Source of the DNA: Antedon mediterranea
Taxonomy: Eukaryota > Echinodermata > Crinoidea > Comatulida > Antedonidae
DNA length: 64,000 bases
Reading direction: 5' to 3'
Assembly: GCF_964355755.1 (NCBI RefSeq)
Contig: NC_092679.1
Coordinates: 6,014,001 to 6,078,000 of the forward strand
Shown here: positions 9,642 to 52,066 of the stretch, one piece after another
How the letters are laid out: the number at the start of each line of letters is the position of its first letter
Numbering within the stretch: the first letter of the stretch is position 1
The notes under the pieces: model-generated
Databases searched by the model: none
What the model was told of the DNA's origin: nothing
The model's input: the letters and a program-made list of their open reading frames with translations, nothing else
Program-made: the position numbers and the translations under genes

Positions 9642-9675
9642 AGTAATGTCAGATGATGTGCTTGCCTCTTTATGG

Positions 9676-10464: not shown

Positions 10465-10644
10465 ACTTTTCTGACTGTTTTACTTTATCGTTTTGATTTA
10501 GCTTTTCGATTTTTTTTGTATCTCCATTAAGTTGCAGCCACTGATACCCACAGCTTTGTCATTTTTTCAGTTATTTGCCTTTGGATTTATATATATATAT
10601 ATATATATATAAATCAATTGTGTTGCATAGCACTAGCACTGTGT

Positions 10645-27111: not shown

Positions 27112-27342
27112 GTTGTTTAAAAGAATACATATTAGCCAATATGGACTATCTGGATCCTCGTCAAGAAAGAAAGTTATCTAAGAAGAAGTTGGAAGCCAAA
27201 CAGTTATCACTGCAAGGAACCACCAATTATGGAATGACATTGGACGAAATTGAAATGAATTACATGGTACCGCAAGAAATGCCAGAATTACCCCCAGCGC
27301 CATCTACAAAGCCTCGCCCTAATTTTCATAGATACGTCAAAA
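27112..27342 (+). CDS. Alternative 5' exon 1 (67 codons from ATG 27141)
   Basis: The exon is bounded by TTTTTATACAG at its left and AAAA|GTAAGTAC at its right. The frame from the ATG at 27141 runs to the donor, leaving one base (phase 1). The peptide is Lys/Arg/Glu-rich at first (RQERKLSKKKLEAK), then acidic and proline-rich (MPELPPAPSTKPRP). Upstream of the ATG the frame is open to the acceptor, also in phase 1, so the exon could be internal and symmetric rather than the first coding one. No known domain was recognised. Confidence 0.6.
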
Positions 27343-28815
27343 GTAAGTACTGTTAACAATTATCATGTACAAAGTGCCCTTTTTTCATTGTAAGCTATTT
27401 CTTAAAACTTTAGTTCTTGGAATTTCTTTGAGTCTAAACTTAATCTAGTCTAGCCAACATTTAATGACTAACACGGAAGCGTGTTTTTCTCTAGTTTATG
27501 ATTATCGAAAGGGGTTTTGTTACAGGTGTGAAGAGGAAATAAGGTAGAAATTTACAGAAGGTACATTTGAGATATTTAATGACTTACCGATGTGGAAAAT
27601 CTGTAACTAATACATTAAAATTTAACAATCATTCATTTCATCAATTGCCATACAAATAATACAGAGCATAAAATAAGGATCAACCTAGAAGTAACTTGTC
27701 TTAGTTGGCCCTTTAACATGGTAACAAAAATAATAACAACAAGTGAGAATATGATGAAGCATCAGTAATAATAATAATACAAATTAAATGTATAATGTTT
27801 AAGTAAATATTTCACTCACTATTGGTTTTTATAATGGTTAAGGAATTTGTAAAGAGAAAAAACCAAAGTTTTGCTGTTCAAGGAAATAGGAGAAAATGAA
27901 AGATCAGAGACAGAAACAAAACTCAGGCTTGAAAAAGAAAATTGTGGTATTAAATCCGTGGAGATTTGCAGTAAAAAAATTTCATAAACTTCACCTGATG
28001 TTTGTTTTTGTGAATGCCATATTTGAAATAGTATTTTCAAAAGTACTTCTTAATTTATCTAACCAAATTAAATGCAAAATTAGACTAGGTAACATTTTTT
28101 TTTCAATTAGTTAGTTTTTCTTATCACTTCCTGTCTTTAAAATCTTTTATATGCAGAAGGAGGATCTGTAATAATTACTATAATTGATTTATAACTGCAG
28201 CTGTAACAACATCTACAAACAAAATGCTGAAGTCGGAATATTATATTATTTATCCTCTTATTTTATGAGTCATGCAGAAAGGCATGAAATTGGCTAAATT
28301 TCAAAAAAATCTGGAAAGAAACTGGATATCTAATAACATGTTACTAAATTTATTTCCTGTCAACAACACATTTATTATTATTTTTTCAATGTGTAAAATA
28401 ATAAGTTTGCTGCCTTCACTTCACTCAGACTAAAGGTTTAGAGTTTTAATTGCACCCACAGGATAAAATGGGGTTCAAAACGGGTCAATTTAGAATCTTA
28501 AAGAACCTGTTGTGGTTTTAAAATTTAATCTTACGTGTACAATTTCCTGTTCGATCTAGAGCCAAGCCTTAAATAATAATACTGGAAAAATTATTATTAG
28601 GGTACAAGTGTATATTCAAGACGCTTTCGGATAATAACATTTAGTATCATCTTGTTTTATCTTTAACTTAACTTGTAAAGATTTCTCTACAGCTGAATTC
28701 ATTTTAGAAGTTTTTTTTGTATCAGGAATTTACTTTGCTAAATTGTGAAGCCTTGTGAAAGGAATAACTTTGAAGATTTTCTTTTTGGAAATAACATTTT
28801 TACGGGAAGTTAACA
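27343..28815. other. Intron or intergenic, nothing recognised
   Basis: AT-rich sequence with no repeat family or exon that I could identify; short open frames on both strands lack coding character. Confidence 0.4.
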
Positions 28816-28900
28816 ATGTATCCAGACGAAATTACAATACAAAACGCGACGAGTCCACTTGGACAACAAGTGCTTTCTTACCACCATGGGACTTATTTTT
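28816..28900 (+). CDS. Alternative first exon 2 (28 codons)
   Basis: The ATG in AACAATGT opens a frame of 28 codons that ends at TTTTT|GTAAGTTT in phase 1. The peptide starts MYPDEITIQN and is followed by a Gly/Gln/His stretch. No acceptor is obvious just upstream, as expected for a first exon. It is too short to score as coding alone; support comes from the donor and the shared phase. Confidence 0.5.
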
Positions 28901-29202
28901 GTAAGTTTGTGAGATATTTTTGCTATTGTCTAGTAGCACTATATAGTAGTATTATAAATATAATTGTTTGTTCAACCAAGTTTTATTCATGATAGAACAA
29001 ATTTAAATAAGGCGTGTTGGATTCATTGGTTTGTTAGTATAGCCATTATATAGTTTTATTATAAAAATCCTAGATCAAAAATGGATTGAAGGATTCTTTC
29101 AAATTATTCTGTTAACAAATTTAAATATGATTGTAAATGTTCTGGTTTATAGTGTTAAATGAATTTCATAATTTTTTTTTATGTTTGTTTGTTTGTTCAT
29201 TT

Positions 29203-29446
29203 TTATACTGGGTGACCTCTTCAGTCAAAGACTGATCTCCCAGTGGACCCAGTTGGTGATCAGAGGCTGTGATGTACTAATACACCGGGGTAACCCCCTA
29301 CTCGTCTCGAAAGATGTACTAGGTTCTTTAAAGTGCACACGAGCTAGTTGTGTACACTGGACCTACGGTTTATAGTCCTTATCCGAGAAGACTCGTTCTA
29401 CCACCAGAACCAGGGAGTGAGTGAGCCTCGAACCCTTGCCGATGTA
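29203..29446 (-). repeat. tRNA-derived SINE, 5'-truncated
   Basis: Same family as 22896-23191, about 95% alike by eye. It stops inside the tRNA head after the B box and lacks the A box, so it is a 5'-truncated copy. Confidence 0.8.
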
Positions 29447-30276
29447 TGAAACTACTAAAATAAAGCTGTGTGTTTAAAAATCAATGAAACTGTTTGTGGT
29501 ACTTCTTTACCATCTAAGTTTTTTTTTATTTCAACATGGTTTTTGTAGAAAAGAAATTTCCAAATTCAAAGTAGAAATGTGTATTGTATTGTGGAAAATA
29601 CAACAGATTATGTAGTGTACTCTGTATAGAGAAGAATAACACAGTTTATAAATCAACAAAAATCTAAAAATTTACCACACCTCCTCTCGATCTGCTCCAG
29701 ATAAATTATTTTGAAATTAATAAAACTATCTTAAATAAATAAACTTCTAATAGACATAATGGTTTTTATATGGTACAATATTTGCTGTTAATTTTATGAT
29801 ACTAGTTTCTATCACCTCTCTTGATATCAAACAACAAATGTCATTGGCTGTTCTGTAGTTTGTTGATCAAATTCTGTACAACCAAAATAAACATGTGCAT
29901 TACTTTGTTAGGAGCAAACTTTGTACCTTAGAATTTCCTTCAGCGTGCCATACAGAGGTTCCTGTTCTATAAGCCAATTTGATCATAAATAATTTTATTG
30001 CTTAATCTATTTATTTAGATCCTTGATATTATAGCAATTTTTATGATTCAATTTGAATACTGCCATAGCTGATGTTAGCTACTGTATTCTTAGTCGACAG
30101 TAACATACTATTCTAAAAGTTTGCAAATTTTTGACGGATTTATTGAGGTGTATAACTTCAGCAGAATAATTGAACTATTTCTAGCCACGTTTTAACTGGA
30201 AACGAAAACATTTATAAACTTCTTACGAGTAGTGAAGGAATAACTTTTTATAGTATAATCTGCAATTGTTTCCAAA
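29447..30276. other. Intron, nothing recognised
   Basis: AT-rich sequence with no feature I can support. Confidence 0.4.
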
Positions 30277-30340
30277 ATGATTTGTCCAGTATCTATGGAA
30301 CTTGACCATGCAGGAGAGACTAGCTGTGATGATAATAATG
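30277..30340 (+). CDS. Alternative first exon 3 (21 codons)
   Basis: The ATG in AAAATGAT starts 21 codons (MICPVSMELDHAGETSCDDN...) that end at AATG|GTGAGTTA in phase 1. The peptide is acidic and cysteine-containing. As with the other short first exons, only the start-plus-donor arrangement and matching phase support it. Confidence 0.45.
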
Positions 30341-32183
30341 GTGAGTTAACTACTCTAACCTTGTATTCTTCCTCTGGATGTAGAGGAGGTACATCTACAA
30401 GCTAATCTTATAAATATTAGCTAATAATATAACTTTTACTTCCTTAAAGGTAAAGTGATGAAAAAGTTATATTTTCATAAATAAATTCATGGGGATCCTC
30501 ATTTATTATCTTAACTCCATTCTCTCTCCCTCTTGAAACGTTTTTCGGCATTTCAACATTATGCTTTCCACGATTTGTTTCCACATTTTTCTGTTTTGGG
30601 CAGGATGGTTTACTATGCTAAAGTTTACATTTTTCCTTTTAAATCTTTTTTTATTTGGTTATATTACCCAAAATAAAATTATAAGAAAAAAGGTTTTATT
30701 TTACTTGCAAGAAGATATGGTTGACATTTATGAAGAGGGGTTTTCTACTTTTAGTGGCATTAGAGCTTGCTCCTGAGGCAGAATAGGCTGTTGTTGGTTT
30801 ATCCAGCTCAGGTAAGCGGCACTACAAACATCACTGTTGGCATATAAGAATATATGGAGGTGAACTTCTCTTTATCATGGATGGGGTTAATCAGCACTAT
30901 CTGGCTACAATATCTGTATTTATTTATTTGTAGGGCTATTTATATATTAACTGAAGATTTAATCTCGGCTACCAAATATATTATCTATTTGAACATCATC
31001 TCCTCATTTTGATTGGTATTAAAACTGGAATGTGTAAAAAAAGGAAAAACATTTTTCTTGATCAATGTATGTCTGTCATCACTGGTTTCTGTGTCTTTTA
31101 AGTATTGGAGAGAATGACTATGACATCATTGGTACGTACTGTACTGGAGAATCGTGAGAAGCGACTACTCTGTACGTCTATACATATCTTATTTGTGCTT
31201 TCGCTTTGTAATCACAAGTCAGGGGCGCCTAGGTGGGCTTTCCACTTCACTACAACACAACAACCAATCATGAACTCATCCAAACTGTCATGCTAGTGAT
31301 TGGTCAACTCACTTGTGTTTCACGTACACCCTTACGATACAGTACGTCCAAGTGGAAACCCAGCTTGACCACAGCAACTGTATTGAATAATTATTTAATC
31401 GTGGACGTTGGCATGTTGGTCAAGATAGGATTGATAGGCACAACTGATTATTTTGTTGATTTAGTCCAAATGGTCAAATTCTTTCAAGGTAGAAATACAG
31501 TACTTGCATTGAAAACACTTGAATGATGCAAATAACAGATTACAGTACATTGATTAATACAGATACATTACTATAAAAAATATGTTTACTTTTAGGAATG
31601 TTTGTGGCTATAATATTCACATTCAGACTGGTCAAACAAATATTAGCTATAGGTCTTCATTAATGAAGAAATTTATGTTAACAAATGCTTAAAGAGAAAT
31701 ACTGTTGTAGGATTCACACTACAGTTGAGTAATTTGATGACTTCTCCAAATCTATATAGTAATTCTAGTTGAGTGCATCAAGTCATAGGTACTATGGAAC
31801 CTTGTTAATACTGTTTTCAACAAGTTAAAATGTACAGTATGGTATTAACAAAAGGTTACGCTCAACCATAGCTAAACACAAGAGCCATTATGACTCTAAA
31901 ACCCATCACAATAGTACAATAGCTAAGGATGTACTTTACCGTACATGGCATACAATTAAACTTTTCCAAACCCTGTATGGAAAATCAGTGAAGCATGACC
32001 TGACTCAGTAGTGACGTTTCTTTAGGACCATGTTTTTTTTGCCCTGAGCACAACCCGTCACTCTGATCCAGTTCCTTCCTCTAGTTTTTACTCTCAAAAT
32101 AGTAATATCTGTACTAAGTTGGAGGGCAAGTGTACTATTTGATTCAGAAGTAATAATATCTGTTTGTTAGGCTTACCATCAAT
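30341..32183. other. Intron, weak inverted repeat only
   Basis: Around 31210-31370 GTGGGCTTTCCACTT and AAGTGGAAACCC are inverted, with CCAATCA/TGATTGG between them, so a small foldback element may be present. No exon or gene was found. Confidence 0.3.
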
Positions 32184-32214
32184 ATGGATCAAAGTCAGGA
32201 TGTTGAAAATAGAC
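32184..32214 (+). CDS. Alternative first exon 4 (10 codons)
   Basis: A very short exon, MDQSQDVENR, ending at AGAC|GTAAGTAC in phase 1. A decayed echo of its donor region (GAAAATAGACGCAAGT, with GC for GT) lies about 125 bp downstream, so the site has been locally duplicated. Confidence 0.4.
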
Positions 32215-32613
32215 GTAAGTACCTCTATTCTAAAATTTAGTTCTATTTGATACTTGTTGAGTTTTATGTTTCTTAATTAGGAAAGTGTATACTGTACCTT
32301 TTGTCATAGATAAAATATAGTAATAAATAATTGAAAATAGACGCAAGTTTAATTTTTTTAATATTCTAAATCTACAGTATATCTATTTGACAAAGTTTTA
32401 TGTTCTGAATTTGATGATGATTTGATTTGAATTTATTTGGAATGAGTATAAATACATTCAAAGTGATAACATTAACTTCTGTAACTGACATAACAGAGAC
32501 ATACATTTATAGAAGATTTTCCAATATAGCCCAAAAAGCGTTATTATTTCCATTTGGGGTAGTAGTTAGTAGTGTGTATCTGTATATCTGTATTTTTTAA
32601 GTCATAGGTAAAA

Positions 32614-33245
32614 TAGAGTATAATAACCAGTGATGAAGACCAATTATAAAATTATTTAATTGAAACGTTTCTGTTTAATATTTTAATAACTCTTGACAAT
32701 TGATACACTCTCACCGCTCTTTATTAAAGGAATACCGCCAAAAAGAAAATATGATAATATTGCATTCCATTTTTAGAAGTAAATTTTATTAATGGAATAG
32801 CACACATCGTCCTGTTGTTGTCGAGCACTTTTAAAAAGACTATAAAAGGTAAAAATTAAACAACCTCCGCATCTGGTCCTTTTGTGGTTCATTACATTTG
32901 TTGTTATAGCAAAGTTTATCGTGTCGGCTTTTTATATAGAGTATAACAACCAGTGATGAAGACCAATTCTTATAAAAATATTTCATTGAAACGTTTCTAT
33001 TTTGTTAATAACTCTTGACAATTGATACGCTATCATCTTTAGTAAAGGAATACCGCCAAATAAGGAAATGTAATAATATAATGATATTGCATTCCATTTT
33101 TAGAAATGTTATTAATGGAATAGCACACATTGTCCTGTTGTGTTCGAAGAGACTAAAGGTAAAAATTAAACGGCCTCCGCATCTGGTCCTTTTGTGGTTC
33201 ATCACATTCGTTGTTATAGCAAAGTTTATTGTGTCGGCTTGTTAT
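32614..33245. repeat. Tandem duplication, two units of about 320 bp
   Basis: Both halves run from TAGAGTATAA(T/C)AACCAGTGATGAAGACC through AGGAATACCGCC, TTGCATTCCATTTTTAGAA and CCTCCGCATCTGGTCCTTTTG to AAAGTTTAT(C/T)GTGTCGGCTT. They differ by small indels. No coding content is apparent; short open frames on both strands of the second unit are chance. Confidence 0.85.
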
Positions 33246-34224
33246 TAGGATAAGGCCTATGTTTTATGTAATCTGTGAAATATGTGATAAAAATAGTTAG
33301 TTATCGAAACTCAATCAATCTGCTTTCTGTTTCAACATGCGCATATCCTATTAGCCACTTAATGGTTCTTTAAAATTATTGCTTTTTTCAACATCATTTG
33401 TATAGAATATCACAATGCAATGCAGTTTCAACTTTGTTCATCATGATAAACATAACTTTTTTAATTGTCATTTTCAAATGTCATTTTTTGTAATTGTAAT
33501 GCGTCCATTTTTTTTTTATGCTTAGGGACTACAAAGACAAGCCACTTTGGCTTCTGTGTGTCTTGACCATAAACAATGTAAACTGTCTGTTGATGTTGAA
33601 TAAATGTTGTTGTTTAAATAAAAATTATTGGTTTTGTATTGTGGAGAAAAAAGTCAACTTTTTTCTTCATGGTTGGATGCACTTATCCGATCAAATCCCA
33701 ATATTTTCTTTATGAAAAACCGGTAGAATGTAATTCCTGTGGTGGAATAATCCCTATCCTGTATCGTCATACTAATTTATTTTTGTTGACATCACAAAAA
33801 CAATTTATTGTAGGAGGTAGTACAACTGTGATCCTGGTCCAATGTCAACAATTGTGGTCTAAATCCGTTATTCTTATTGCCAATGGTCATGACATGCACT
33901 TTTATTATTATAGTATAGTTTTATTATTTATTTCCAGTACTTGTTTTTCCCCCTTCATTTTACTTTCTTTAAACTGTGTTTTTCACTTTTTAACTATATC
34001 ATCTTCATTGTGATACTAGGTAACTAATAGCGATTAAAAGGCACCCTTTCAACCCCCCCCCCCCCCCCTCCAAACAAAATGAATGTTATTTGTCTCTCCA
34101 ACTCCAGGCCAAAAACAAAACACAAAATGCTTATAATTAAAATTAATTTATTCACAAGTTTGAAGATACAACTTAACTAGAAATGAATTTTTCACAACAT
34201 TACAATTTCATAAAAAAACCAGTT
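33246..34224. other. Intron with a poly-C tract
   Basis: AT-rich with one run of about 16 C near 34052. No exon was recognised. Confidence 0.35.
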
Positions 34225-34482
34225 TTATGGTAGGAACTTGAAGATTTCCTGCGTAGACAAAACATTCAAACTAGGCCAAAACAAGTTGCAACTGAAAGTT
34301 GCTTCTTGACTGATGCAACCGATTCTTTTCGTCAAGTTCGTTAACAGTTTACCGCATTCTAGGTCATTGATGCGCTTTTTCAAAACACAACTTCGTAGTG
34401 AATCACAGTTTCCTGTTTTACGATTACTCAATTTACCTAAATTTAAGTGCTGACTGTTGAGTCGTTTTACGTGACGCGCCAT
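34225..34482 (-). CDS. Small intronless ORF, antisense in an intron
   Basis: The ATG at 34482 (TCAATGG) opens 85 codons: a basic N-terminus (MARHVKRLNS), a central KKRINDLECGKLL segment that could be helical, and a C-terminal part with CNLFWPSLNVL. Five cysteines are spread along it. On the same strand an AATAAA lies about 75 bp after the stop, and codon use looks balanced. I do not recognise the family. It could be a genuine small gene inside the large intron, a retrocopy, or chance; the polyadenylation signal and unusual GC content in this AT-rich region favour a real gene. Confidence 0.4.
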   Translation of the reverse strand: MARHVKRLNSQHLNLGKLSNRKTGNCDSLRSCVLKKRINDLECGKLLTNLTKRIGCISQEATFSCNLFWPSLNVLSTQEIFKFLP

Positions 34483-34488
34483 TGACAC

Positions 34489-35871
34489 CTCTGCGACAGC
34501 TGTTTTATCTTTTCGTATATTTTGAAAGATTTTCGGTATCTATTATGGGATTGATAGTGACCTGATTAAAATATGACCCAGGTTTTAACGATAGATGACG
34601 TTTACGATGGTCATCTTGTCATTGTAGGGGCGTGTGAAGGGAGGGTTTGTTGGCTCTAATTCAGAATTACGATTAAATCAACTTTTTTTGTAAAGTAAAA
34701 TTAAATAGATATTAATATAGAAATGCATTATTATTTTTAACACAGAATTTTTTTACTTAAATTAAAATGCAGCGATGCAATGAACCGAACACAAAGCAGA
34801 AAATGGTTTCCAGCGTATATTTGTAACAATTATTCAACAAGAGATTCATATTCTTTGTTATGTGTCCCGTGTGCTTATCTAAATAAGAATTTACAATTAT
34901 GTACTTATTTATGTACATTACATTTTTGCATGGATTAAATATTTATCTAATTATTTTAAAATCCATGATGTTTGGAATGATTGCCAAAACATTTAGATAT
35001 TGTTAGACATTTTAAAAACATGTTATGACAATATAGACAATGTGGTGTGTACTTTAAATATAAACCATTTACTATTACGTTTGAGCCCTCGGGCGCTTCA
35101 AGATCTGGTCCAAATCATAGTTTAAATTTTTCTTAAAGTTTGATTAAATGTGAAATTAAAGTGCAGTAGTAACCTTGCACTGGATGGTAGCCAAAATATG
35201 ACTTTTATTTTGGTCACAAAATCTGGACATTCAAAATGAGGTGGTCACTTACGGTAATCTAATTGGCAGATATCCTGATAAGAAGGATCTAAATGATTAA
35301 TATAGGTCATTTGTCTTTCCTGGCATTTTACCATATAAGGGAATTATCAATAATAATATAAAATTATTAAGTATTGAACTTTTAAACCTTATTTAACAAA
35401 AATACCAAGAAAGTAGTACAGGAACATATAATAACAAACACACAATCATTGCAACACACAAACATGTTAAATATTTATACTGTAGATTATAGTATTGGAC
35501 TGTTATTGTCAAGGAAAAATTATAATTTGTATCAAATTGCATATATAATTAAATTGGATGTTAAGCTTAGAACTTTAAGCAAAGCCTTCCTGATAACAAA
35601 AAAAAGTACCTTGAATGTGGAGTGAATCCCCTTAATCATTTTATCATAACATTAGTTTGTTTATGATTATAGGAAACGTTTAAGCTTTTTATCCTGTAAC
35701 GGAACTTAAAGGGACATTTCAATTACTGTAATCTATTTGTTTTTACAGTAATTATAGAAAATTGGTAAAAGTTAATATTCTATCTGGCAGTTAAAATAAA
35801 TAAATGAATAAAAATAGGTTCTTGAATTAACTTTTTTCCTGAAAATGTATTTAACATGAGATAAATTGTTG
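34489..35871. other. Intron, nothing recognised
   Basis: AT-rich. A CAGCTG-containing, less AT-rich patch at 34490-34660 may be the promoter of the antisense ORF. Otherwise featureless. Confidence 0.35.
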
Positions 35872-36150
35872 TACGTTGTCCTAGTGGGTAGTTGTCCTAG
35901 TGGGTACTTGTCCTAGTGGGTAGTTGTCCTAGAGGGTAGTTGTCCTAGTGGGTAGTTGTCCTAGTGGGTAGTTGTCCTAGAGGGGAGTTGTCTTAGCGGG
36001 TAAATGTCCGGGTGGTAGTTGTCCTATGGGGCTTATTGTCCGGGTGGTAGTTGTCCTATCGGGGTTATTGTCCAGGTGGTAGTTGTCCAGGTGGTAGTTG
36101 TCCAGGTGGTAGTTGTCCAGGTGGTAGTTGTCCAGGGCGTAGTTGTCCGG
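35872..36150. repeat. Minisatellite, 15-18 bp unit
   Basis: About 17 copies of GTAGTTGTCCTAGTGGG and variants (AGAGGG, CGGGTG, CAGGTG). The right-hand copies are the shorter GTAGTTGTCCAGGTG. The valine-rich open frame across it is a product of the repeat. Confidence 0.9.
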
Positions 36151-39040
36151 ATACGAAAAGTAATATATCTGAAGTTAAAGAAATATAGAGGGCAGCAGAA
36201 TACTGTGTTTAAAATTTATAACATTTTCAAACAAAAGTACTGTACAGTAATAGGCCCTGTACAAGCAGCACTTTCAGACAAGGCTGTAAAAGAGACCTAG
36301 CTCCGAACAGAAAGAAGCTATCACCTATCACCTGTTTTAAGCCTCGTAAATCTTCAATGTATGTCATATAAAGATAATATATTAATGGTCAATTAAAACC
36401 TCATTTTTATTGGTGTACAGTAAGTTTACCTTTTTTACAATCAATTAGGAGCTACCTCAATATCTAATAAATTGGGCTGTAATTCTGCCTTTTTAGTTTC
36501 TTTGTTTAAAAATTTAAATTTTGTGGGAATAGTTCCTATATGTTTAAATATAACCAGCTGTCCCAGTATGATTATATTATTAATTTTATTATTATATTTA
36601 TGAGCAAAAATTTATGATTAAGGTAACAAATGTATGATTTATTTTATTATAGGAAATGTATTATTGCAATATATAGTATGGAACTATATCCTCCATGATT
36701 GTAATAAAACGTTTCATTGTCATCTTTTGTCTGTTGTTACATTGGATCTGTTTTTGTGAACAGTTTTTTGGGTGTATCCTGGTAGTACCACGATATAGTG
36801 GTTATTAATATCGATATTCTTTATTGTTGAAAATAAACATCTTCAACTTTGTCTCGGGGAAAGAAATTTACCTTTTTTAGCCACAACAAAATGAACCACC
36901 CAAATGGCTAGTTTGCTAGGGTGAATTTCAAGCCCTTTGATTTGGGAAAAAAACTATACATCTGTTACAGAATGCTTACAAGTTACAGTAGATTACAAAT
37001 GGTAGACAAAGGTAAAACGATGGATACGTTTCACTGATAATAGGATATCTTGCCTTTCCTCCTCTAACCCATTCATGCGTCATAGGTCACACAATCCAGA
37101 TAAAATGTTAGAGTGGGAATTAGTGGTCCTAATGAACCAATTTGCGTAAAATGTATCCCTGAATTAGGGAAGTGTCAGGTGATCAACCTTGTTGATATCT
37201 TTGGAAGGAACTAATACATATACTTGTTCTAATCATAATTTGATATTGATTTTTAATACAGTATTCATTTGTATTTATATTGTCTTATATAATACCTAAA
37301 CAATGTTTCTAAGTGCTTTGCACACAAAATTGATCCAAAAAGAAGAAAAGCAGAGGAACCATTTACACTGCTCCATTTTCCAGCACTTTGAAGCTCCCAT
37401 GTGAGAGCTCGCCGGATCAGTATTTGCAAAAACTTAAGTGGTGAAAAGGCATCTGTCTATCCTACCAAAATAAGAAGAAAAAAGATGTTGCTTGAAAAGA
37501 TGTAGTAAGAAAATGATATGAAAAAATGTTCACATAGCTTGTTGACATTTTTCTTTTAATGTAGAAACTAATGTAGTATATTATTACAAAAAAACATGCA
37601 GTGCTTAAACACAACTGAAAATGTTTGACAAAATCAGAGGATGATCTAGGGGGTTAGTTGCACCAGAGGGACTCACTTCCCTTTTTGACAGCTTTAATGT
37701 ACCGTAATCATGTTAGCTCTGAAAAATCCTTCAAAAAGTATCAGGAAATTTTACAATCTATAGTAAAAAATAACAATATAAGTTATAATGACAGGCGTAT
37801 AAGGAGTTACTGTTTCAAAACAACATTGTAAAATTCTTTTTTTTTTAAATCCCAGCTGGAGGTATACAGAAGCATTTAAGGAAATCCCACAGGTGGTTTT
37901 CTAGTATACTACTGTAATTGTATATTTTGTTTCCTTTTTAGGTTACTTAATATACTATTGTCTTATCAAGTATAAGTTCACATGACTAGTAGTAATAACT
38001 TTAGCAGTTTCTATTCCATAATAAATAACTAAAACGTAATAATAGTTAATACTTATAGTGCACAAATGTAACAAAATACATAGCTCAATTTACAGGGATG
38101 ATGACCCATTCGTGAGTACATATGTACTTATATGGAAGTTGTGCAAGAAGCCCATAAATTTTCCTTAAAGTTAATTCAAAGTTAATCAAGCATGGAAAGT
38201 CACTCCTTCCTTCATGATTCAAGAATATGATCTAGAAGCCAGGCCTTCTGAATTGAACTCAGTTCGACATATCCATGCTTCTGCAAAACATCTTGGTTGA
38301 ATTCTTCATTATTTAGTAATTTTTACAAAAAGTAGAATATAGTTCTTCAATTCCATTCTTCCGGTTGGAATCGAAGAAAAGAAAGGAAAACTTGCTGGAG
38401 AGAATTGCTTCCTGTGATTTTAGTTTCATTGTGCCACGCATGGGATCAGAATGCTCCTGTAATTTTTGTCTGCCAAAACAATTGAGAACTCTGTGATTGG
38501 ATCTGTGCTTTGAACTACGGAAGGAGTTGGTGTGATTGTTCCTAACCATCAAATGAATTAGTTTGCAGTTGAATTGTTTTCATTTATGTCCTGTATTTGC
38601 GCACAGGGTTAGCTGCTTACCTATGCATATAGTAATAAGTTTTTTCAAGGTTTTTCTTTTGAGCAAGTCATTTTATCCGACTTGTATTACTTCGTAATTA
38701 TCAGTCATCGTACTAAGTAACAATTCCAGAACTTGCTATTTTTTCCTCCTGTTTGTATAAAGTGCCTTGGAATATTCGGTACAAAAACATTTATGCTGAA
38801 ACTGATTGTTAAATTGTTTTATGAACTTTTTGCTGAAAGAGAGTTTTTCGGTACCAAAAGCCTGTCTATTTGAGTGAATTTTCCAGAACTTTTTTATCAA
38901 TTGTTGCAGTTTCAAGTTGTTGCTGGTGTTGTAGAAGATTTTTACTAAAATCACTATTCCAGAACTCATCTTTTTCCTAATTTATTCATATAAATCTGAA
39001 CTTTGTTACTCTATCCATAAGTCTAAGATTTTGTAGTCAG
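36151..39040. other. Intron with one dispersed repeat
   Basis: At 37340-37400 a segment (AAAGCAGAGGAACCATTTAC ... CCAGCACTTTGAAGCTCC) is matched in inverted orientation at 62600-62660, so it belongs to a dispersed repeat. A tiny ATG exon candidate at 36999-37011, phase 1, is noted but weak. Minus-strand open frames at 38313-38552 and 38736-38969 show nothing recognisable. Confidence 0.4.
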
Positions 39041-39203: not shown

Positions 39204-40190
39204 GTAATGTGCTCATTATTTTTTACAATGTCAAAGTTCAGGTTTGGATAATGGGGTGATGTCATCTTGACAATGTTTAGTTCTTACAGTTTTGAATGTA
39301 GATGCTTTAGACCATGAGGGATCAACCAATGAATCCTAACTGAGAATAAAAATGTGTATGACTATAATTCTGTAGTTTTCCATGGTGTTTTTTTTTAGAC
39401 ACAGTGAAGCAAAATGTTACCTATACTCTTCTAATTTAATACTCTTACTAACTAAAATAATACTTTTTTTTTGTCAAATACCAATTAGGTAGCACTTAGA
39501 GAGACTTGTTAGGAGCAGTGTCTTTAAAATGAATTGAATATTGTTCGATAGTAAAAATCTTGTCTTGTACACAGAAAAACGAAAATCATTTGGCAATAGA
39601 CCAATCTAAAACTAGTTTTTTTTTTTGACAGTTACCGGTTATGAAACCAAAGTTATTTTAGAACAGACAAACATAGCCAGTGTTACAGTGGCTCATTCCA
39701 AATACAGCATAGGAAACCATTGTCTTTTAGTTGCAGTCTAAACCATTTCCTTTTCTAATATTAATCGGAAAAAAAAGAGATAATAATAGTTCATTTTAAG
39801 AGGCATAGATTTAATCACTATCCTAGAAAATAAATAATAGTAAGGACAACATTTTCATTAAATATTTTAGCAATAACTAATCTGAATTTGGAGTGAACAT
39901 TTTTCACTATATATATGATTTGTGGTGGTACTGTAATGTGAATGCTACACCGGGCGAAAATGTTCCCTGTAGGTGGTTGTTGAGGTTTGCGGTGTCACTG
40001 CCTAAGAAACTGCAAACAAATTAATAACACCAACATTCAGTATAAGCTTCGAAGCAACGAAGACTTAAATTTTGTTTTGTACCATAAAGGTCAGAATTCC
40101 AGGTCATTTAAGCAAACTAGTCATTCTCTGTTAACGAAATTGAATAAAAGTCAATAGACTACACAAATATTCCCTTAGGATATTAATCAA
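39204..40190. other. Intron, nothing recognised
   Basis: AT-rich sequence without supportable features. Confidence 0.35.
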
Positions 40191-40199
40191 CATGAATTA

Positions 40200-40435
40200 A
40201 TATTTGGCCGGAAGTGTTAGGAAGTTTGCAGAAGCTTGGGTTTACTTTATAGAGTTGAATATTAAATAACTACTGTAAAGTCAATTTATAGCGCCCTCAG
40301 TGTGGTCTCTTTATTTAGCAAAAGTGGTCTGAAGTTTGCAGAAGCTTAGTAGGTTTACTTTATATATTTGAAAGATATAACTACTGTAGAGTCAATTGCC
40401 AGCGCCCTCAATGTAGTCTCTAGTATTACCGGAAG
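40200..40435. repeat. Tandem duplication, two units of about 115 bp
   Basis: Both units contain GAAGTTTGCAGAAGCTT, GGTTTACTTTATA, AACTACTGTA(A/G)AGTCAATT and AGCGCCCTCA(G/A)TGT(G/A)GTCTCT in the same order. Confidence 0.75.
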
Positions 40436-40594
40436 GGTTTGTGGTTCTATTCCTATTGTTGCTCCAAACTTTATTCTCATTTTGTGCAAAACTTTGAGTG
40501 ACTTTGTGTAAAACTTGTGAAAATGTTACCTATGTGCAAATGTTTAACCACTTTACATAAAACTTTTAACCCTTCAATTTTGTAAACCTTTAAG

Positions 40595-40800
40595 CCATTT
40601 TGTGCAAAGTTTTACCTATTTTGTGCAAAGTTTGACCTATTTTGTACAAATCTTTACCTATTTTGTGCAAAGTTTTACCTATTTTGTGCAAATCTTTACC
40701 TATTTTGTTCCAAGTTTTACCTATTTTGTGAAAGGTTCATTTAATTTTTGCAAATATTTACCTATTTTGTGCCAAGTTTTACCTACTGTGCAAAGTTTGA
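40595..40800. repeat. Minisatellite, about 21-24 bp unit
   Basis: Roughly nine copies of TTTTGTGCAAAGTTTTACCTA with small changes; a looser fringe of the same motif (TTTGTGCAAAACTTT) starts at about 40480. The Phe/Tyr-rich open frame is a product of the repeat. Confidence 0.85.
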
Positions 40801-41836
40801 TTTACCTACTTTTAATTGGCATAATGACAAGAATTAACATTAAAAATCAATATCTGCATTATAAAGGTTTGGTTCCTAACCAAATAATGGTTGAATAGAC
40901 GATGATTACAGCTTTTAATTTACAGCTAATTAACTTCTCTCTTGTATATTTTATCTTTTTAACTATCATTAATGCTGCATATTGTTAAAGTTATTAGGAA
41001 GCATTCAATTTGCGATTATGTTTAAATTCTTTAAAGTTAAATACGGTTTTTCCCTACTCCGTTTAACTTTAAAGACTTATCTCCCTGATGCAATGTATTA
41101 AATAGTTAAAATGATAATTATAATTAATATGATTTAGTATCTATATTCCATAATTGGTAAACAGATACCAACATATGTTTTTAATTATTGACAACATTGT
41201 GTTTGTTTACCACACAATCTTGGCAGTGTGCCATTAATAATCAATAAACATGACATGTGATTTCCTACCTAGAAGTATTGTAAATAACTTTGTATTACGC
41301 CGCGGTATTCACTTCATATGTATATAAACGATTGGATAATGATTATTATATAACACTTTACTTAAATAAAGAATTGTAAATACACATCGTATTGTCACAT
41401 GCTCTTTTAAATATTAACCGGTATTGTAAATATTGAACAGAGAAACCTTGCTGGTACATTTAGTTAGAGATTGCTGAATAAAATGATCATCAAATTTTGG
41501 CAAGAATTCAGCTAAGCTACAGTTAGGCCAGATAACTACCAAGGCTATGTTTACAACAGGTATTTAGAATAGAGACTATATGTAATATTCTATAATATCA
41601 CCAAGGATATGCAACTACAAAAGACACTTGGCAGTGAGTGGCTAGTTGAGCTCATGTTTAATTCATTTTTTGTCATGCTGTGCACTGTGACAAAACCACA
41701 TTCCATTATTGATTGCTATTCTGTGAATAGATCGCGCTATTTACGTAGCCAACCAAAGCAGTCTCTCAACAGATATATTACCGGCAGCTACTTGTACTAG
41801 ACAGTTCTATTAAACTAGACAATAATTTTATTTAAC
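40801..41836. other. Intron, nothing recognised
   Basis: AT-rich. The part just before 41837 should hold a promoter if the next exon is a first exon, but no core element stands out. Confidence 0.3.
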
Positions 41837-41897
41837 ATGTCGGCCAACGAGTTCTACCATTATCCAAGTAATAACAACGGTTGGAATGTAATTTACT
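41837..41897 (+). CDS. Alternative first exon 6 (20 codons)
   Basis: ATG in AACATGTCGG starts MSANEFYHYPSNNNGWNVIY, ending at TACT|GTAAGTAA in phase 1. A strong donor and a polar Tyr/Asn-rich peptide of the same flavour as the next exon. Confidence 0.5.
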
Positions 41898-43290
41898 GTA
41901 AGTAATTCTTTTGAACTGTTTTTATATCTTTTAATTAATTGTTTATGTTAAGATCATCATTAATAATTAGAGAGGAAGGTACAGTACAAATCTGTGTGTA
42001 CATTCATCGGATGATTTTTCGTTCTCGAAACAACCTAACACCTTCTGAGATCCATGATGTCATTGGCTAAAATTATTTTACAATAAAATAGAGGAACCAT
42101 AGGCCTACAGTTTCTTGATGTGATTTTGATCAAGATAAAATGAACCTAGATTAGTGGAGACATATGGTAATAATATTATGTGGGTTTTTGTGGGATGTAC
42201 AGCATGGGTGTGGAGTTGTGATATGCGCACTAAATAATATTTCGTAAAAGGACAAGATGCTTGTTTATATAAAGAAAATGCTTTTAATAAATTATTTAAT
42301 ACATACATGTGCTTCAAATTAACAAAGAAGTTATTTGTAAATATTAAATTATAAAATTTAGTAAGAAATATTAGATTTGAAAAGAATATATTGAAACATA
42401 TATTTAAATGAAATATACTAAACTTATAATATGAATTTTTAAAAAATGTTTCAATGTCAATAAAAAAAAAAATGATTTCATTGAGGATGAGGAAATAATT
42501 ATAAAAGTAAAATCTAGATTTGAACTTGCAGTTATCCCTGCAAATTATATATCCTTCTACTACTAGTGGAAATGATATTAATAAACCTTATGGCATCTAA
42601 TATATGCGGACTTTCTACCACATAGATTAAATTTCATTTTATATCAAGAAAAAGAATAATCCTAGATTACTTTTAAGTACGATATGCAAATTATTTTATT
42701 TTTTATTTCCTTATAAATAGATAAAAAAACATATATAAACATGACAGTTAATTTTATTGTTTCTTATTATTCATAAGCTAATATTTTACATTTAATAGCC
42801 AGTAGTAAAACTCATTAACATAATTCAAAATAAATATGCAAATTATTTTTTCCAACTACTTGTGTATAAAAGGAAATATTAATACCTTAGCTTCCTTTTT
42901 CATTCATAAGTTGAGTTGTATTCATAGACGGATGTTATTCGTAGTAAAAAAAACCATCTTGTGAATGAGTTTATGCTAATGACTTAACCGACCAATAAAA
43001 TCAGTGGAAAATGTATGGGAATAATTAGTCATACGTAAGCAAAATGAAATTGGCTCACTGCCAATATTCGTTTGTGACGCGATGTAATTTATTATTCTAA
43101 GACACAGAGATATAGAAAATTATAATTAGAAATACAGACGGATTGAACAATATATGTTATAAAAAGTCTATAAAAATTATTTTACTGTATCATCAGAGTA
43201 TTAGAATATAGTACTGTATAAACAAACATTGCCAAATTTTAAGAATTTAAAAATTACTTTTTAATATTTATTTATAAACATTTTATGCTA
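41898..43290. other. Intron, nothing recognised
   Basis: Very AT-rich; no repeat family or exon recognised. Confidence 0.35.
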
Positions 43291-43294
43291 ATGA

Positions 43295-43620
43295 CTTGCA
43301 CTGATGAAGGGCTAGTGTTGCCTGAAAGCTCTGAAAATGTTTCTGGCTGATGGTTTTAATTTAGTTTTTGGCTTATTTTTTTGGATCCTTATTGACATCC
43401 AGCCACCGATGACCACAGCACTGTCATTTTTTCAGTGCTTATGTTATTTTGTATCTCCATTGAGATCCAGCCACTGATGCCCACAGCATTTTCATTTTTT
43501 CAGTAATTTTCTTTTTTCAGTAAAATTCCTGTGGTTTTGAAGGATGCACCTTTGTGCTAAGTGTGCCACCGATCTAAAGGTGTAATTCCAAATAAATAAA
43601 TAAATAAATAAATACAGTAT
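43295..43620 (+). mobile_element. Penelope-like 3' terminal remnant
   Basis: It matches the outer plus-strand ends of the elements at 2060-2220 and 10420-10580: CTGATGAAGGGCTAGTGTTG, CTGAAAGCTC, then ATCCAGCCACCGATGACCAC and CATTTTTTCAG. The latter block occurs twice. Here the hammerhead core CUGAUGA is intact, although stem II has a mismatch. An AAAT microsatellite closes the remnant. Confidence 0.6.
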
Positions 43621-44305
43621 AAACTAAACATCTTACATCAAAATATGTTTATTATCATACATTCTAACTATCAATCTATAATTTCCTGTATATTTTCATC
43701 TTTTAAAAAAATATCTAAACATTTTTATGATAAATTTGATGAAAAACGGTCTGAAGATGAAATTCATTAAATTTGCTTCGGAATTTATCTGAGGGCGTGC
43801 TTTTAGTAGAATTTCTGTCTTTGATTTGAAACAAATTTAGAGAATGCTTTTTTGGACAGTTTTGTAAATAAATAAATTTAGATCAATTTTATTCACAAAA
43901 TTCCTGCGGTTTTGAAATTATAAAAAGAACGTCACAGGATACAATTGCTTTATAGAAAAAGAGTATAATTTTTAGAAACTTTTAGTTGTTGGATAAATAA
44001 TGAGCTTTACTCACTGTTTACATTGTTTACTGAAGTGTGACCAGAATGACAAAGCTATAATGGTATAATGAATGGAAGGCTGAACAATCTCCCGCCAGCC
44101 TCTCAAACACAACCTCTGATTGGTTGATATCAATGGTCATAGAAAGGCGTGTATTAAAGGTGGTCTTTGAGCACATTTTATCTACCCAGTCAAGCGTGAA
44201 ATGAGAAGGGTGCTTTGGGCCTGTATGTAGTGTATTTAGTCATTGGATTAAGCCATCACTGCCAAGTGTACTTATACATAATACGGCCTTTCCCCTTTTT
44301 GGAAC
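43621..44305. other. Intron, upstream of exon 7
   Basis: No repeat or exon recognised; the 300 bp before 44306 are less AT-rich and may include a promoter. Confidence 0.3.
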
Positions 44306-44381
44306 ATGTCTTCCCCTGGGTCTATGTTACACCATAATCAACACTTCAACCAATTGGACAGAAGTCCCACTACTGACTATG
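44306..44381 (+). CDS. Alternative first exon 7 (25 codons)
   Basis: ATG in GAACATGTCTT starts MSSPGSMLHHNQHFNQLDRS and ends at TATG|GTAAGTCA in phase 1, with a near-perfect donor. Joining it to 51727 gives ...TTDYA then PLPTYLPPP without a break. It is the alternative first exon nearest the shared exon. Confidence 0.55.
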
Positions 44382-45335
44382 GTAAGTCATTTTTCTAACA
44401 TGGTTGTTGAACCAAATCTCCCTGTCTCTTCATTATTTTGTTTATATTGAAGTGTACTGCTGCAGCTGCTATATAAATAAGACAATTTAGTTTATTTTTA
44501 TATTAGGGATAAAATGATGTAGTTATTGTAGCTTGATGTGTTTTCATACAACACAGAGGAGTTGTATGCAGGGAGTTGTAAAATAACAACTCCCTCACTC
44601 TATTATGACTTGGACTGTTTGGTATGCGAGTGTTTAGATCATAGATCACACCCTTGAGTGATTTATTGGGTTAACCATGGAGGTATAAAATTAGATCTAT
44701 GGGTTAAATACCTACCTTAACTTGTGTTCAATTATCCCATGTTTTAAAAGCTATTTTTTCCTAGAATGTACAGTTCTGTTCAGATTCTTCAACTTCAGTT
44801 CACCAATTATTTTGTCTTATAGCAATAATGTATTTATAAAACAAAGACAAAACCATTTATCTTTCTTGATTCGGGTAACAATAATCAAATAAGAAATGGG
44901 TACCAGTATACGTCAGAAATAACCTGGAAAACTATTAACACGTCATCATTTTTAGGACATTCATACAAACACTTACAGAAACTGTGCCATAATGTAAGCT
45001 CCAAATGATATGATTTAAATTCAATTTCAAATTCTTTATCTGAATTGAAGTACCGAAGTAATAAGTTTCCCCACTGTTTTTAATATATAAAATTCATTCA
45101 TCGCTTTTAGTCCGTTGTTCATTAGACAAAAGACAAATGGCACATGTGTTTAGTTGATTAATTAAACCATGTTTAATAATCCAAACCAACGATTGGTCCA
45201 TCACTGGCAGGATATGCAGATTAAATGCAGAGTAAATTGGCGGGTAACTTTTTTTTTTGGATTATTAATATTTTGGAAAAATCTCAAGGTACTGTATTAT
45301 AAACAGTAAATTGCAAATTGAACAATAACCTTATT
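44382..45335. other. Intron, nothing recognised
   Basis: AT-rich, with no exon or repeat family identified. Confidence 0.35.
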
Positions 45336-47822
45336 TTTAAAGATGTATTGTCCCCCTAAAAATGAAAAATAAAGATTAAAAAAATCTAATTTTGAATAGA
45401 CTGTTTTGTAGTTAACATAAAGTTATTCACTTCCACCGAAAAAAAATCCGAAAAAAATATTGATTTCGCTTATAAAAAAATCAAAATAAGTTTACCATTT
45501 TTTCGAACTCATCGGCTCAGAAATTAGGCCGGTAGAGCTAACTCATACATATGCATGATATGTTAATGAGCATCCACACAGCAGAGATCTGATCTAACAA
45601 TGGACGATGCACGTTGTATGTACACAACAACACCACCAGAGATCGACGCGACTCGACTGTGGGTTTCCCTGGCATGATCGTATAAATATGTAAAGTTTTT
45701 TTTTTTAAAGCTGAGCTGTTAATGTGTCGGTAAGTAGGCCTAGACGGTTATTTTAAATATAATAATATATATAACGCAATAATAACAGGAAGGTAAATTA
45801 ATTAACTTAGCCTGGGATTTTTTCAGTTCAGGGCTAGCCTAGGCTAGAATAATTAATACATGCTGCTGCATATTATTAGGCTAGTAGCAAGCACACTGTG
45901 ACAATCGGGTCCCTGCAGAAGATGCCCAGCTAGGCCCTATACATTGTACTCTTCATAGACTGGCCTAGGCTATATGCCATCAATCTTAACTACATTCCGA
46001 AAATACAGCCAGCTTGCTGTACCATATATATTTACAGTTGAAGTTTGTTTAACTAATTTTTATGATAAAAATAAAACAAACATTTTTCAGGGAAAATGGT
46101 TGCAATACAAGCCTGAAATTGAGAACCTTCCAGCAGCACAGACAGTACAAACAAGTAGACAGAGGGGAAAAGCCAGCTTAGCCATTTTACAACACAAACA
46201 AATGTTCTCTGTACTGTAGTAAGTCAAATATTTATTTTCTCTTTTTATAAGTTATAACATTATAAGTAATGTGTTTTAATTACCATAGAAAGGTAGTATA
46301 CTTATTTGACTATGTCAAAGTAAGCAATTTCACTAGCCCAATTTTGCACTAAATATGCATGATCTATTTTTTCCAGATTTTCATACTTTGCTTTTACTTT
46401 TTTTAAAGACGTTGAGCTGATGAAGACTGGAACAGAGGTCACCCAAAGACAACAATGATAGACTCGGTATTGGAATATGATTGGATATTGCAGGAAAAAT
46501 ATTTCTGACTCTCCTGCTGCATTCGGCCAATATGTTCTTGTCCAGCTTGTAAAATATTGTATAATTTTTTTTGTATTATATGTACAGTATATTATTTTGT
46601 AAACATAACATTCAATAAATAAAAAAAAACTACTACAACAGTACACAGGATAAATTCTTCAAATTTACTTACACTTCATAATTTTACTGTAAATATTACA
46701 GTGCAAAAGGAGTTAATAAAATATATATATACAGTATATCTTATTGAATTCCTGTATTGTTTTTTGTGTCAATTTGTCTACTAATTATCAATGTGTTGAT
46801 TGTGGCAGTAATTACGACAGCTATATAGTCTTCTAAGATCGCTCACATCCATTACAAAGTGTCATTTTAATAGTAAGAAACGTTTCAATAAATTGTGAAT
46901 GTTGCCACTGTACGATACATTTTGTTTCTCACTACTTGCTCTTATTGTTCAATCAATCAACCTAAAAAAAAAAAAAATTTGTGTCAAAATATCTGCATAA
47001 AATGTTTATTTGCGGAATGTTAATTTGAACCTATTGCATTTGATACAGAAAATATTTTTAAAATATTGCATCAGTAAAACATCCAAAACAATATTTAGAT
47101 TTTCTTTTTTTTTAATTTTCACTGCCGAATAGATAGTTGAAATCAACCAATAAACCAATTCATCATGATAGAAACAAAAATACATCCCTTCTGGTGGTGG
47201 TCTACTGTAGCCCTAGCTAGCAGTGTACTGCCTAGGCCTACTACACTCTACTTCTAGAGACAGAAGTAGGCAGCAGTTAGGCTACTCGAGACTGTCAGTG
47301 CTAATAGTAGTAGTAGACTAGTAGTACAGTAGCAGCAAATTCGGGCCTAGGCCTAGCTAGGCCTCTCCTGTTAGCGAAACAAAAACTCCTCAAATGAATA
47401 AGATTCAACATCAAAGTTACCAACTGTAATTCTAACTTAGCATTCTGCTAGCTGTAGTTTTCTTCAAGCAAGATTCGTCTCGCATCACCACTCGACTCTC
47501 TCGCACGCATGCATTGCATGCTATCGTTGTTGGCTGTTGATTTGGAAAGCATCATCATCCACACGATGTATCCATACAATATGAATATTTATGAGCTAAC
47601 TCAGGTCAAGGGTTAAATTAAACCGGAACACATTTGTCTTCCAGACAAATAGCTTCCGGTTGGTTAATTTTTGCATTAAATTGCGATTTTCCCGTGTAAA
47701 AAATTATTTTTTTCAATCCAAATTGAGGTCAAAGTGAATAACTTTTATGTGCAATTAAAATGGCCTATTCAACAAAAATATTGAAAATTTTTTTTTTTTC
47801 AGGGGGACAATACATCTTTAAT
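45336..47822. mobile_element. DNA transposon with long inverted ends, about 2.5 kb
   Basis: Left end TTAAAGATGTATTGTCCCCC and right end GGGGGACAATACATCTTTAA are inverted. The subterminal parts also match in inverse order (AAAGTTATTCACTT / AAGTGAATAACTTTT, and GAGCTAACTCATA / AGTTAGCTCAT-type strings), so the arms extend about 200-250 bp. TTAA flanks both ends, as in piggyBac-type insertions. I see no transposase. Within it, 46091-46217 looks like an exon: TTTTTCAG acceptor, about 43 open codons, then GTA|GTAAGT beside the stop. It may be a captured or lost gene piece. Confidence 0.65.
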
Positions 47823-47879
47823 TTAAAGCCCCAGACAAAAAAAAAAAAATATTCTAAAGTTATACAGTACTTCGTATTA

Positions 47880-48255
47880 AAAACAATCATAGAGTGTCAC
47901 AGTGTGACGTCACAACGATAGAGGGCGCTGCATGGTTGCAAGCCAACCAAAAAATGCGTTCAGCGCTACTATGTTCATAAACAGTAAAGATCTGTATTTC
48001 TATCAAATTATGTATCTTAGCTTGTTGTTTTTAACTGTAGTTGAAGAATTAATAGATTATTAAAAACAAATAGTGATCTGTTGAAATTTTAGTTTGTTTT
48101 TATTGAGAATTATTATATTTTAAAATTACTACTTCAATAAAGCCTATTCCAAACCATTGGTGACTTTGGAGTCACTCACTCACTCCGAACGCATTTTGGT
48201 TGCGCCAGCAACCACGCAGCGCCACCTACTGTCGTGACGTCAGCACCGCGATACT
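47880..48255. mobile_element. MITE with 60-bp inverted repeats carrying TGACGTCA
   Basis: Left arm (about 47900-47965: TGACGTCAC, AGGGCGCTGC, TGGTTGC, CCAACCAAAA, ATGCGTTC) is repeated in inverse orientation at about 48184-48245 (GAACGCATTTTGG, GCAACCACGCAGCGCC, GTGACGTCA). About 220 bp of AT-rich sequence lie between. It is inserted directly beside the right end of the preceding transposon. Confidence 0.75.
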
Positions 48256-50004: not shown

Positions 50005-50175
50005 CTATTCAACTTCAACTTCAACTTTATTTTCCAAATAATATTTTGTTTTACAATGATAAATAATATTACATTTTAAAACATAAGGAAGGAGCTAGAA
50101 AATAGTGTAAACACTAATCAAGTCCAGCCCCTCTTACATAAATTATACTAAATTTTTACAACTATGGGCAATAAT
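50005..50175 (-). mobile_element. Non-LTR retroelement 3' end, minus strand
   Basis: The plus strand reads TTCAACTTCAACTTCAACTTTATTTT; on the minus strand this is a 3' tail of GAAGTT repeats after a T/A-rich 3' UTR that includes GGGGCTGGACTTGATTAG. The tail type matches that of the element at 6815-8145. Only the 3' end is left. Confidence 0.5.
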
Positions 50176-51726
50176 AACACAGGCCTAAAAATAAAAACTT
50201 AATAAGTTAAAACAATCCCATTTATATATTTTAAAATTTAAATATTACTGCACTTTTTCATAAATAAAATAAATAATTATATTCAGGAGAGCAAACTACA
50301 ATAACGCTACAGCCAACCTTTATTCAGAAGCAAGAGGACACCAGTAAGGGGACATTTGTGTGTCACAAAGGTGTCTCTTAGCGGTTATATTACATTTACA
50401 GTGTACATTATCAGCTATCTGTACCAGGCAATTTAAATATATTGTGATTGTTTTACTGTTTGAACTTCAGCCAGTCTGGAAACTTATCTTTACATTGTCT
50501 TTGTTCAAATCAACCTGTAATCTAAATATTTCATAATATATTTCAAATGATCAACATCCTCAATAGCTTGTGTCATTTCAAGAGGTTTATGATGACATTA
50601 TCGTCATGGTAATGACCTACTGTAGTAATGACCTGCTAATAGACATTGTCCCATGGTGGAGGTGTCATTACCTTTGATACCATATGGTCGTTGAACGTCA
50701 TAAATATGTATTCAACGTTTATTTGATGTCTGTCGTCAGATACCCTATTGCATAATATTAAGGACAAGTGGAATGGTTTTTAAATGAAACAATACAATAT
50801 TTGGTAGTTAAAATACAATACTAATAAGTTAGTTTATATTTATAATTTATATTTTAGAAACCTGTTATCCTAATTCAAATATACAGATTGTATTACGATT
50901 ATCATATAATACATATTTGTTGTATGTAATTGTATGAATTATGAGGAGACGATGATATGATGAATATTCAATGTGTTATTTTGTACATACGTCACAAGTC
51001 ACAATTATTATTAAACAATAATTATGTTTACATAATTATCAACTTAAAATACTAAAACAGAAAATGTTCTACATATCATTATGGAATATTAATTATAATA
51101 CAATGTTAATAATAAGTTACACTCATTAACTTGTCGCAACTTATTTTATAGGATTTAATTTTTATGTTAATTATTTACTAAAACATACGTTTATCTTGCT
51201 AATTGCTATTTTAGTTCGTACTTTAATGAATAAATTACAGACTTACATTAGTTAATGATGCGTGACAGTTTTGTCATAAGATATAGTACAATGGCCTATA
51301 CCTTCTATTAAATTCTATTACGTTATAGTATACTTGATCACAGTGCATGAATTTAGTTAAACCCTATTTGTATACTGTACTTTGACTCTTATCCAAAAAC
51401 TACTAAACTGGCACAATGGTACAGAAGGAGTCTGGACTGAAGGGCATAAGTTCAGACAGTCGCCAGCTAGTTTATCCTTACTTTCAATCTCATTACTTTC
51501 TTTCTCCATCCTTTAAATGGCAATAATGTGCATAAAAGTAACATTTACATGAAAAAAAAAGAGTACAGCCATCAAGCTAGTGTGTAGAACAGCTCTATGT
51601 GGCTCCCATGGACATACTGTAATAGGGTGTAATTCTACAATACGGGCATTTTTTTTATTCTTACACATAATAAAATAGTTATCATCGATGCACAACTAAT
51701 ATATTTTTCTTGTTCGTTTTTTACAG
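50176..51726. other. Intron leading to the shared exon
   Basis: AT-rich; a decayed fragment with GGTGTCTCTTA at about 50330-50390 echoes sequence beside the MITE at 24853. It ends in the acceptor TTCGTTTTTTACAG. Confidence 0.35.
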
Positions 51727-52066
51727 CACCACTACCAACTTATTTACCACCACCAATATATGGCAATAAACCACATGACAACAAGCTCCACGACCCAAAC
51801 CACCACTATGAAGAACTACCCAGCCCCGCCATGGTTGAAACAATGATAGCTTCAAACAACGGACCTGTAAGACCACCAAGCAGTGCCCCAACAGAGACAT
51901 ACGATGATGCTCGTGACAGCGGATGCTCACAGTTCTCGCAACCGGAAGCTGATCAGCAGATGATGCAACTCGACAGACTTGATTCAGGTTTTTCAAGTTT
52001 TACCGGAACAAGACTACCACTGACGCAGCAACAGCTAAAACCAAGCGTAAAACAGATGAATCCAAG
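51727..52066 (+). CDS. Shared coding exon with DSG motifs (possible IkappaB-like N-terminus)
   Basis: The acceptor TTTTTTACAG and donor CCAAG|GTATGG bound 340 bp open in one frame, entered in phase 1 and left in phase 2. It encodes about 113 residues rich in Pro, Asn, His, Gln and Ser with no stop. Two acidic DSG sites occur: YDDARDSGCSQFS, and RLDSGFSSF, which fits the beta-TrCP degron DSGxxS. In IkappaB/Cactus proteins such a motif in the N-terminal signal-response region is phosphorylated by IKK and leads to ubiquitination. The order acidic DDxxDSG, then RLPLTQQQL, recalls that region, but without ankyrin repeats in the window the family is a guess. Beta-catenin-type and other degron proteins remain possible. 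Confidence 0.6.

Follow-up and report, generated by a model that had tools for sequence, protein, structure and literature searches.

A probable crinoid gene whose alternative 5' coding exons would swap the cytoplasmic head of a common membrane protein body

Our analysis of a 64,000-nucleotide stretch of the crinoid Antedon mediterranea (RefSeq assembly GCF_964355755.1, 354 Mb in 18 contigs; contig NC_092679.1, here C10, positions 6014001-6078000, called the window below) makes it very probable that one gene in this region carries several alternative 5' coding exons, which would swap the cytoplasmic head on a common protein body. The gene would run on the + strand from about 27 kb of the window, whose G+C content is about 32%, to about 4.8 kb past the window's end, with its stop at C10:6082767. 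Seven alternative 5' exons (heads A to G), each with its own ATG, would join a single common acceptor at window position 51727, and because all seven leave exactly one base over, the common body is in frame with any of them. A broad literature search yielded no publication that we recognised as treating this gene, which is not a claim that it is absent from print.

The seven ATG exons listed by the initial annotation, with their open frames, GT donors and one base left over (phase 1), are all present in the sequence. Head A is read from exon 27112-27342, in which an ATG at 27141 opens a coding part (27141-27342) of 67 residues, MDYLDPRQERK...FHRYVK, that ends at the donor AAA/GTAAGT, the slash marking the exon end. 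The coding parts of the other six are 28816-28900 for head B (28 residues, TTT/GTAAGT), 30277-30340 for head C (21 residues, ATG/GTGAGT, with an 11-codon phase-0 frame as well), 32184-32214 for head D (10 residues, GAC/GTAAGT), 39041-39203 for head E (54 residues, or 52 from a second ATG at 39047; AAG/GTAATG), 41837-41897 for head F (20 residues, ACT/GTAAGT) and 44306-44381 for head G (25 residues, ATG/GTAAGT). GTAAGT or GTGAGT is thus found in six of the seven donors, and A occupies position -3 of six of the seven ATGs; the ATG at 39041 has C there, and the in-frame ATG at 39047 has A. By eye, on unaligned sequences, the heads show no mutual likeness. Three head exons were searched genome-wide, 27112-27342 (A), 39003-39203 (E) and 57389-57614 (H, a probable further head described below), and at the sensitivity of that search each is single copy, so none of these three is a fragment of a common transposon.

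The first common exon, 51727-52066, is also single copy; its first two bases complete a codon, in agreement with the earlier claim that it needs exactly one base. It enters in phase 1, leaves in phase 2 and has a strong acceptor (score 8.1); with a coding score of 32.4 it outranks every other segment of 20-69 kb, and its roughly 113 residues, predicted to be cytoplasmic tail, include the motifs PPIY and DSGFSS. Five more body exons lie beyond the window: one that encodes the transmembrane helix and whose acceptor needs phase 2 (C10:6078529-6078746), then C10:6079096-6079244, C10:6081294-6081401 and C10:6081978-6082217, all of consistent phase, and a last exon, also of consistent phase, that ends in a stop (C10:6082567-6082767). 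When each of heads A to G is joined to the six body exons, a single open frame of 428-485 residues with the same stop results, which agrees with the proposal of different N-termini of 10 to 67 residues on a common body. Because these downstream exons, which had not been seen when that proposal was made, continue the frame of every head, the one-gene reading is strengthened.

We predict that the body is a type II single-pass membrane protein, made up of a cytoplasmic tail, a transmembrane helix, a short collagen-like stretch and a cysteine-rich C-terminus. In the head-A protein, 19-residue Kyte-Doolittle windows above 1.6 start only at residues 219-236 (best at 226-232); this sole strongly hydrophobic helix is internal, and there is none at the N-terminus. 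A juxtamembrane NPLY is present, cysteine residues stand ahead of the helix, and outside the helix lies the collagen-like stretch GPRGYNGSQGQTGPSGAG, which consists of six G-x-y triplets. The C-terminus is rich in cysteine and its last residues are HYWKCPKMS. In a type II layout the variable N-terminus would face the cytoplasm, and promoter choice would select its 10-67 residues, or 72 residues with the 51727 segment lost; the transmembrane helix and outer part would remain constant across heads. The heads would most likely determine where the protein is made and which partners its inner end has. We take PPIY, DSGFSS and NPLY to be candidate binding motifs for WW domains, beta-TrCP and PTB domains, respectively.

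A Pfam search with the body, at E up to 10, gave only an irrelevant weak match (E 0.32); it contained no collagen match, recognised no SRCR or C-type lectin domain at the C-terminus and found no peptidase S9 or beta-propeller ectodomain. The PDB sequence search with the body returned nothing at E up to 1. A coiled-coil heptad score was equalled by 430 of 2000 residue shuffles. Across the genome, the protein of exon 51727 and the C-terminal domain matched only themselves, and the transmembrane peptide had one weak additional match (E 0.48), on contig C9. We rejected an olfactomedin (gliomedin-like) end, the one OLF match reported in the genome being on contig C11 and not at this locus. Immunoglobulin-like exons from C10:6094143 were also rejected as part of this gene: its own stop precedes them, and they lead to a frame with a transmembrane segment and a kinase.

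Since the initial annotation had chosen its own exons, we enumerated donors regardless of phase on the + strand of 20000-51700. This interval holds 16 GTRAGT sites (10 GTAAGT and 6 GTGAGT). At nine of them an ATG frame of 10 codons or more is open up to the donor, and phase 1 is possible at six of these nine. The donors omitted earlier are at 23109 (phase 0, inside repeat family D6), 46218 (phase 2, 81 residues, codon score -5.1) and 49397 (phase 0, 31 residues, codon score -7.3). Without a filter on start context, six phase-1 donors were reached in 59 of 5000 dinucleotide shuffles (about 1 in 85), and six donors in any one phase in 162 of 5000. With a filter that required GTRAGT, A at -3 and a frame of 10 codons or more, six donors were left in the + strand of 20-51.7 kb and phase 1 is possible for all of them; none of 5000 shuffles gave six phase-1 donors (mean 0.72) and one gave six in any one phase. 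Admitting A or G at -3 leaves the same six donors, with six in phase 1 in none of 400 shuffles and six in any one phase in three. As a real-sequence control we applied the A(-3) filter to chosen intervals outside the + strand of 27000-44400, in a joined sequence from which 112-116 kb and 121-134.6 kb were excluded: five donors (phases 0, 2, 1, 0 and 2) passed in a total of roughly 174 kb of strand, compared with six, each with phase 1 possible, in the 17.4 kb of 27000-44400. A looser GTRAG donor with A at -3 admits nine donors in that same + interval, and seven of them can be read in phase 1. All of these shuffle and real-sequence controls leave aside head E, since its donor is not GTRAGT.

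Codon usage gives a second line of evidence. The longest frames from 22 kinase loci of this genome (6992 codons) served to train a codon model, and each head was compared with ATG-started open stretches of equal length, presumed to be non-coding (n = 86, 416, 693, 1380, 111, 725 and 504 for A to G). The resulting p is below 0.05 for four of the seven heads, namely A (0.011), C (0.037), D (0.028) and E (0.009), and 0.113 for B. Head A ranks third among the + strand coding segments of 20-69 kb, with a score of 17.2. We also listed weak candidates, defined as ATG-donor pairs with a purine at -3 and a codon score above 2.5. On the + strand of 20-51.7 kb this list holds seven pairs, six of them in phase 1; five of those six are heads of the initial annotation (the pair at 21668 is not), and heads F and G fall below the cut-off. 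The - strand of the same interval holds one.

The region 57397-57614 is a probable further head (H), missed by the initial annotation. It would encode 72 residues (MNWNKRNLPLPDYHPNVY...) and has the donor ACA/GTAAGA, phase 2 and a codon p of 0.026. We chose it for its length and codon score from the + strand of 52067-64529, which has 12 GTRAG sites in all; among the others, 57074 ends a phase-1 frame of 9 codons, and two frames in phase 0, one of 13 and one of 17 codons, end at 63001. Phase 2 is the phase demanded by its position downstream of 51727: head H would bypass that acceptor and fit the next one. Joined to the transmembrane exon at C10:6078529, it is in frame and open to the stop, for a protein of 377 residues that lacks the PPIY and DSGFSS of exon 51727 and keeps NPLY.

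Several observations weigh against this arrangement, some on whether every head is coding and others, taken up in the next paragraph, on how many promoters there are. The annotation had put the odds of the phase coincidence near 1 in 2000; the excess of phase 1 is upheld, but selection was involved, and the chance is about 1 in 85 unfiltered, falling below 1 in 5000 only under an A(-3) filter that, like GTRAGT, was set post hoc, so that these figures overstate the strength of the result to an unknown degree. Head E has the weaker donor GTAATG at 39203. By codon score, heads F and G (p 0.264 and 0.398) are indistinguishable from noise, and the case for these two consists solely of donor, start context and phase. 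In a scan without ATG or splice anchoring, several presumably non-coding stretches of 28-51 kb outscore all heads but A, the best + strand stretch (48159-48251) reaching 12.8 and the best - strand one (47460-47573) 13.9. The density of weak candidates is ordinary as well, at seven in 31.7 kb compared with seven (+) and four (-) in 39 kb (82-121 kb, mixed phases). One reading of these results, to which we give a substantial chance, though a little below even, is that A, C, D, E and perhaps B are real heads, and F and G are chance in-phase ATG-donor pairs in introns. Such a reading would explain why their codon p values (0.26 and 0.40) are set apart from the 0.009-0.113 of the other heads, and the 59 in 5000 unfiltered shuffles agree with it; however, both F and G have a full GTAAGT, A at -3 and at least 20 codons, a filter of GTRAGT, A at -3 and 10 codons is passed only five times in roughly 174 kb of other strand, and codon scores have little power on very short heads. 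It is very improbable that the ATG exons as a whole arose by chance, or that they are parts of further genes nested in introns, with the real first exon elsewhere. The modest outcome of the unfiltered phase test (six of nine donors), the ordinary candidate density and the unanchored segments of similar score in the same stretch would fit that view, but the shuffle and real-sequence controls and the length-matched codon p below 0.05 for four heads oppose it. So does the Pfam search of 10 open reading frames, in which the eight from 22-56 kb were all without a match, so that no other gene was recognised among them.

The initial annotation had proposed one gene with at least seven promoters. A single gene in which several 5' coding exons alternate ahead of a shared body, in one frame and with one stop, is still the reading that we favour; a number of at least seven promoters is not shown. 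Acceptors were scored against random 200-base stretches (median 1.3, 90th percentile 4.1, 95th percentile 5.5). A strong acceptor precedes 27112, and since its score of 7.4 exceeds the 95th percentile, this is likely not a first exon; the frame of head A is open all the way from acceptor to donor, and 27112-27342 is probably the second exon behind an unseen upstream leader exon. For heads B to G and H, the best acceptor within 200 bases of the ATG scores between -0.95 and 3.3, short of the 90th percentile, and these heads look like first exons. The body acceptors score 0.9, 2.1, 4.1, 5.8, 8.1 and 8.7, and the test has little power because three of the six are below the 90th percentile of random stretches. 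No shared promoter motif was found in the eight upstream stretches compared, that of head H included: the best candidate, a 13-mer that 28900 and 30340 have upstream of them, was equalled in 3 of 33 random sets. A bacterial promoter scan of 51000-52000 was set aside, as it has no bearing on a eukaryote. An arrangement with fewer promoters than heads, in which some heads are second exons after common non-coding leaders and splicing makes the choice, strikes us as doubtful. Exon 27112-27342, with its strong acceptor and open frame, is what such an exon would look like, and three of the six body acceptors are no better than the best ones near the other heads, which leaves room for acceptors there; on the other side stands the lack of any acceptor above the 90th percentile near heads B to G and H. 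Finally, 57389-57614 might be an internal exon that replaces 51727-52066, entered in phase 1 and left in phase 2. The AG at 57387-57388 would indeed open a phase-1 frame into this ATG exon, but as an acceptor it scores -5.7, where the six body acceptors range from 0.9 to 8.7, and we regard this reading as improbable.

The surroundings of the gene hold other features. Pieces of three BAAT or acyl-CoA thioester hydrolase-like copies, two in - and one in + orientation, occupy 3295-19215, and Pfam PF04775 and PF08840 were found in all five of the frames tested. The two - strand copies are near-identical by eye over much of their length, at an offset of about 8.36 kb (unaligned), which suggests a recent duplication; between them, at 6785-7870, lies a retroelement reverse transcriptase frame (PF00078, E 2.3e-15). 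Two tandem arrays, at 20025-20995 and 60257-61581, are unlike each other and have a common 85-base spacing, with 92-base spacings at or near the edges of each. Past the window, a long tandem repeat with several open frames on both strands (C10:6084871-6085788) separates this gene from the next, C10:6094143-6148514, which has several immunoglobulin-like exons, a transmembrane segment and a kinase domain with HGDLAAHN. The usual kinase catalytic motif is HRDLAARN, and the downstream gene presumably resembles the pseudokinase PTK7.

The layout of the predicted protein can be compared with that of class A scavenger receptors and membrane collagens (MARCO, MSR1, collagen XIII), in which a cytoplasmic N-terminus is followed by one transmembrane helix, a spacer, a collagen stretch and a C-terminal part. 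It resembles them in layout, but only six G-x-y triplets are found here and the C-terminus has no Pfam domain. A bolder reading, which we put forward tentatively and which may well prove wrong, is that the gene represents a family, as yet undescribed, of short type II receptors with a collagenous stretch, and that in these receptors the start site sets the tail tip plus the entire inner signalling content. Heads A to G would keep the PPxY and DSGxxS segment and head H would replace it, all forms would have the juxtamembrane NPxY, and about eight inner ends would serve one outer face.

In working principle the closest systems are the mammalian dipeptidyl peptidase-like proteins DPP6 and DPP10, together with plectin. 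DPP6 and DPP10 are described as type II proteins in which alternative first exons give variable cytoplasmic N-termini, with five variants of DPP6 and four of DPP10 on a common core with a transmembrane segment (PMC3973911). The gene described here is like them in its predicted type II layout and in the proposed head swapping by alternative first exons. Unlike them, it has a short, collagen-like, cysteine-rich body without a peptidase-like match, more proposed heads and two acceptors of different phase, and it is known from sequence alone. Plectin (PLEC) is reported to have a dozen alternative first exons (PMC8468861); it is a 500 kDa cytoskeletal linker and not a membrane receptor, and we claim no sequence relation to it. 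Teneurin-1, also a type II membrane protein, has an alternate promoter, but the extra exons described are non-coding and leave the N-terminus unchanged (PMC3127987), and no teneurin domain is seen in the crinoid gene. Taken together, these comparisons make the gene a good new example of a gene type known elsewhere and not a new principle. If transcripts confirm it, it would show in compact form how a single outer receptor face can be paired with seven or eight inner ends, chosen by the start and enforced by phase. The question of how alternative first exons originate could be put to this gene in a clear and testable way.

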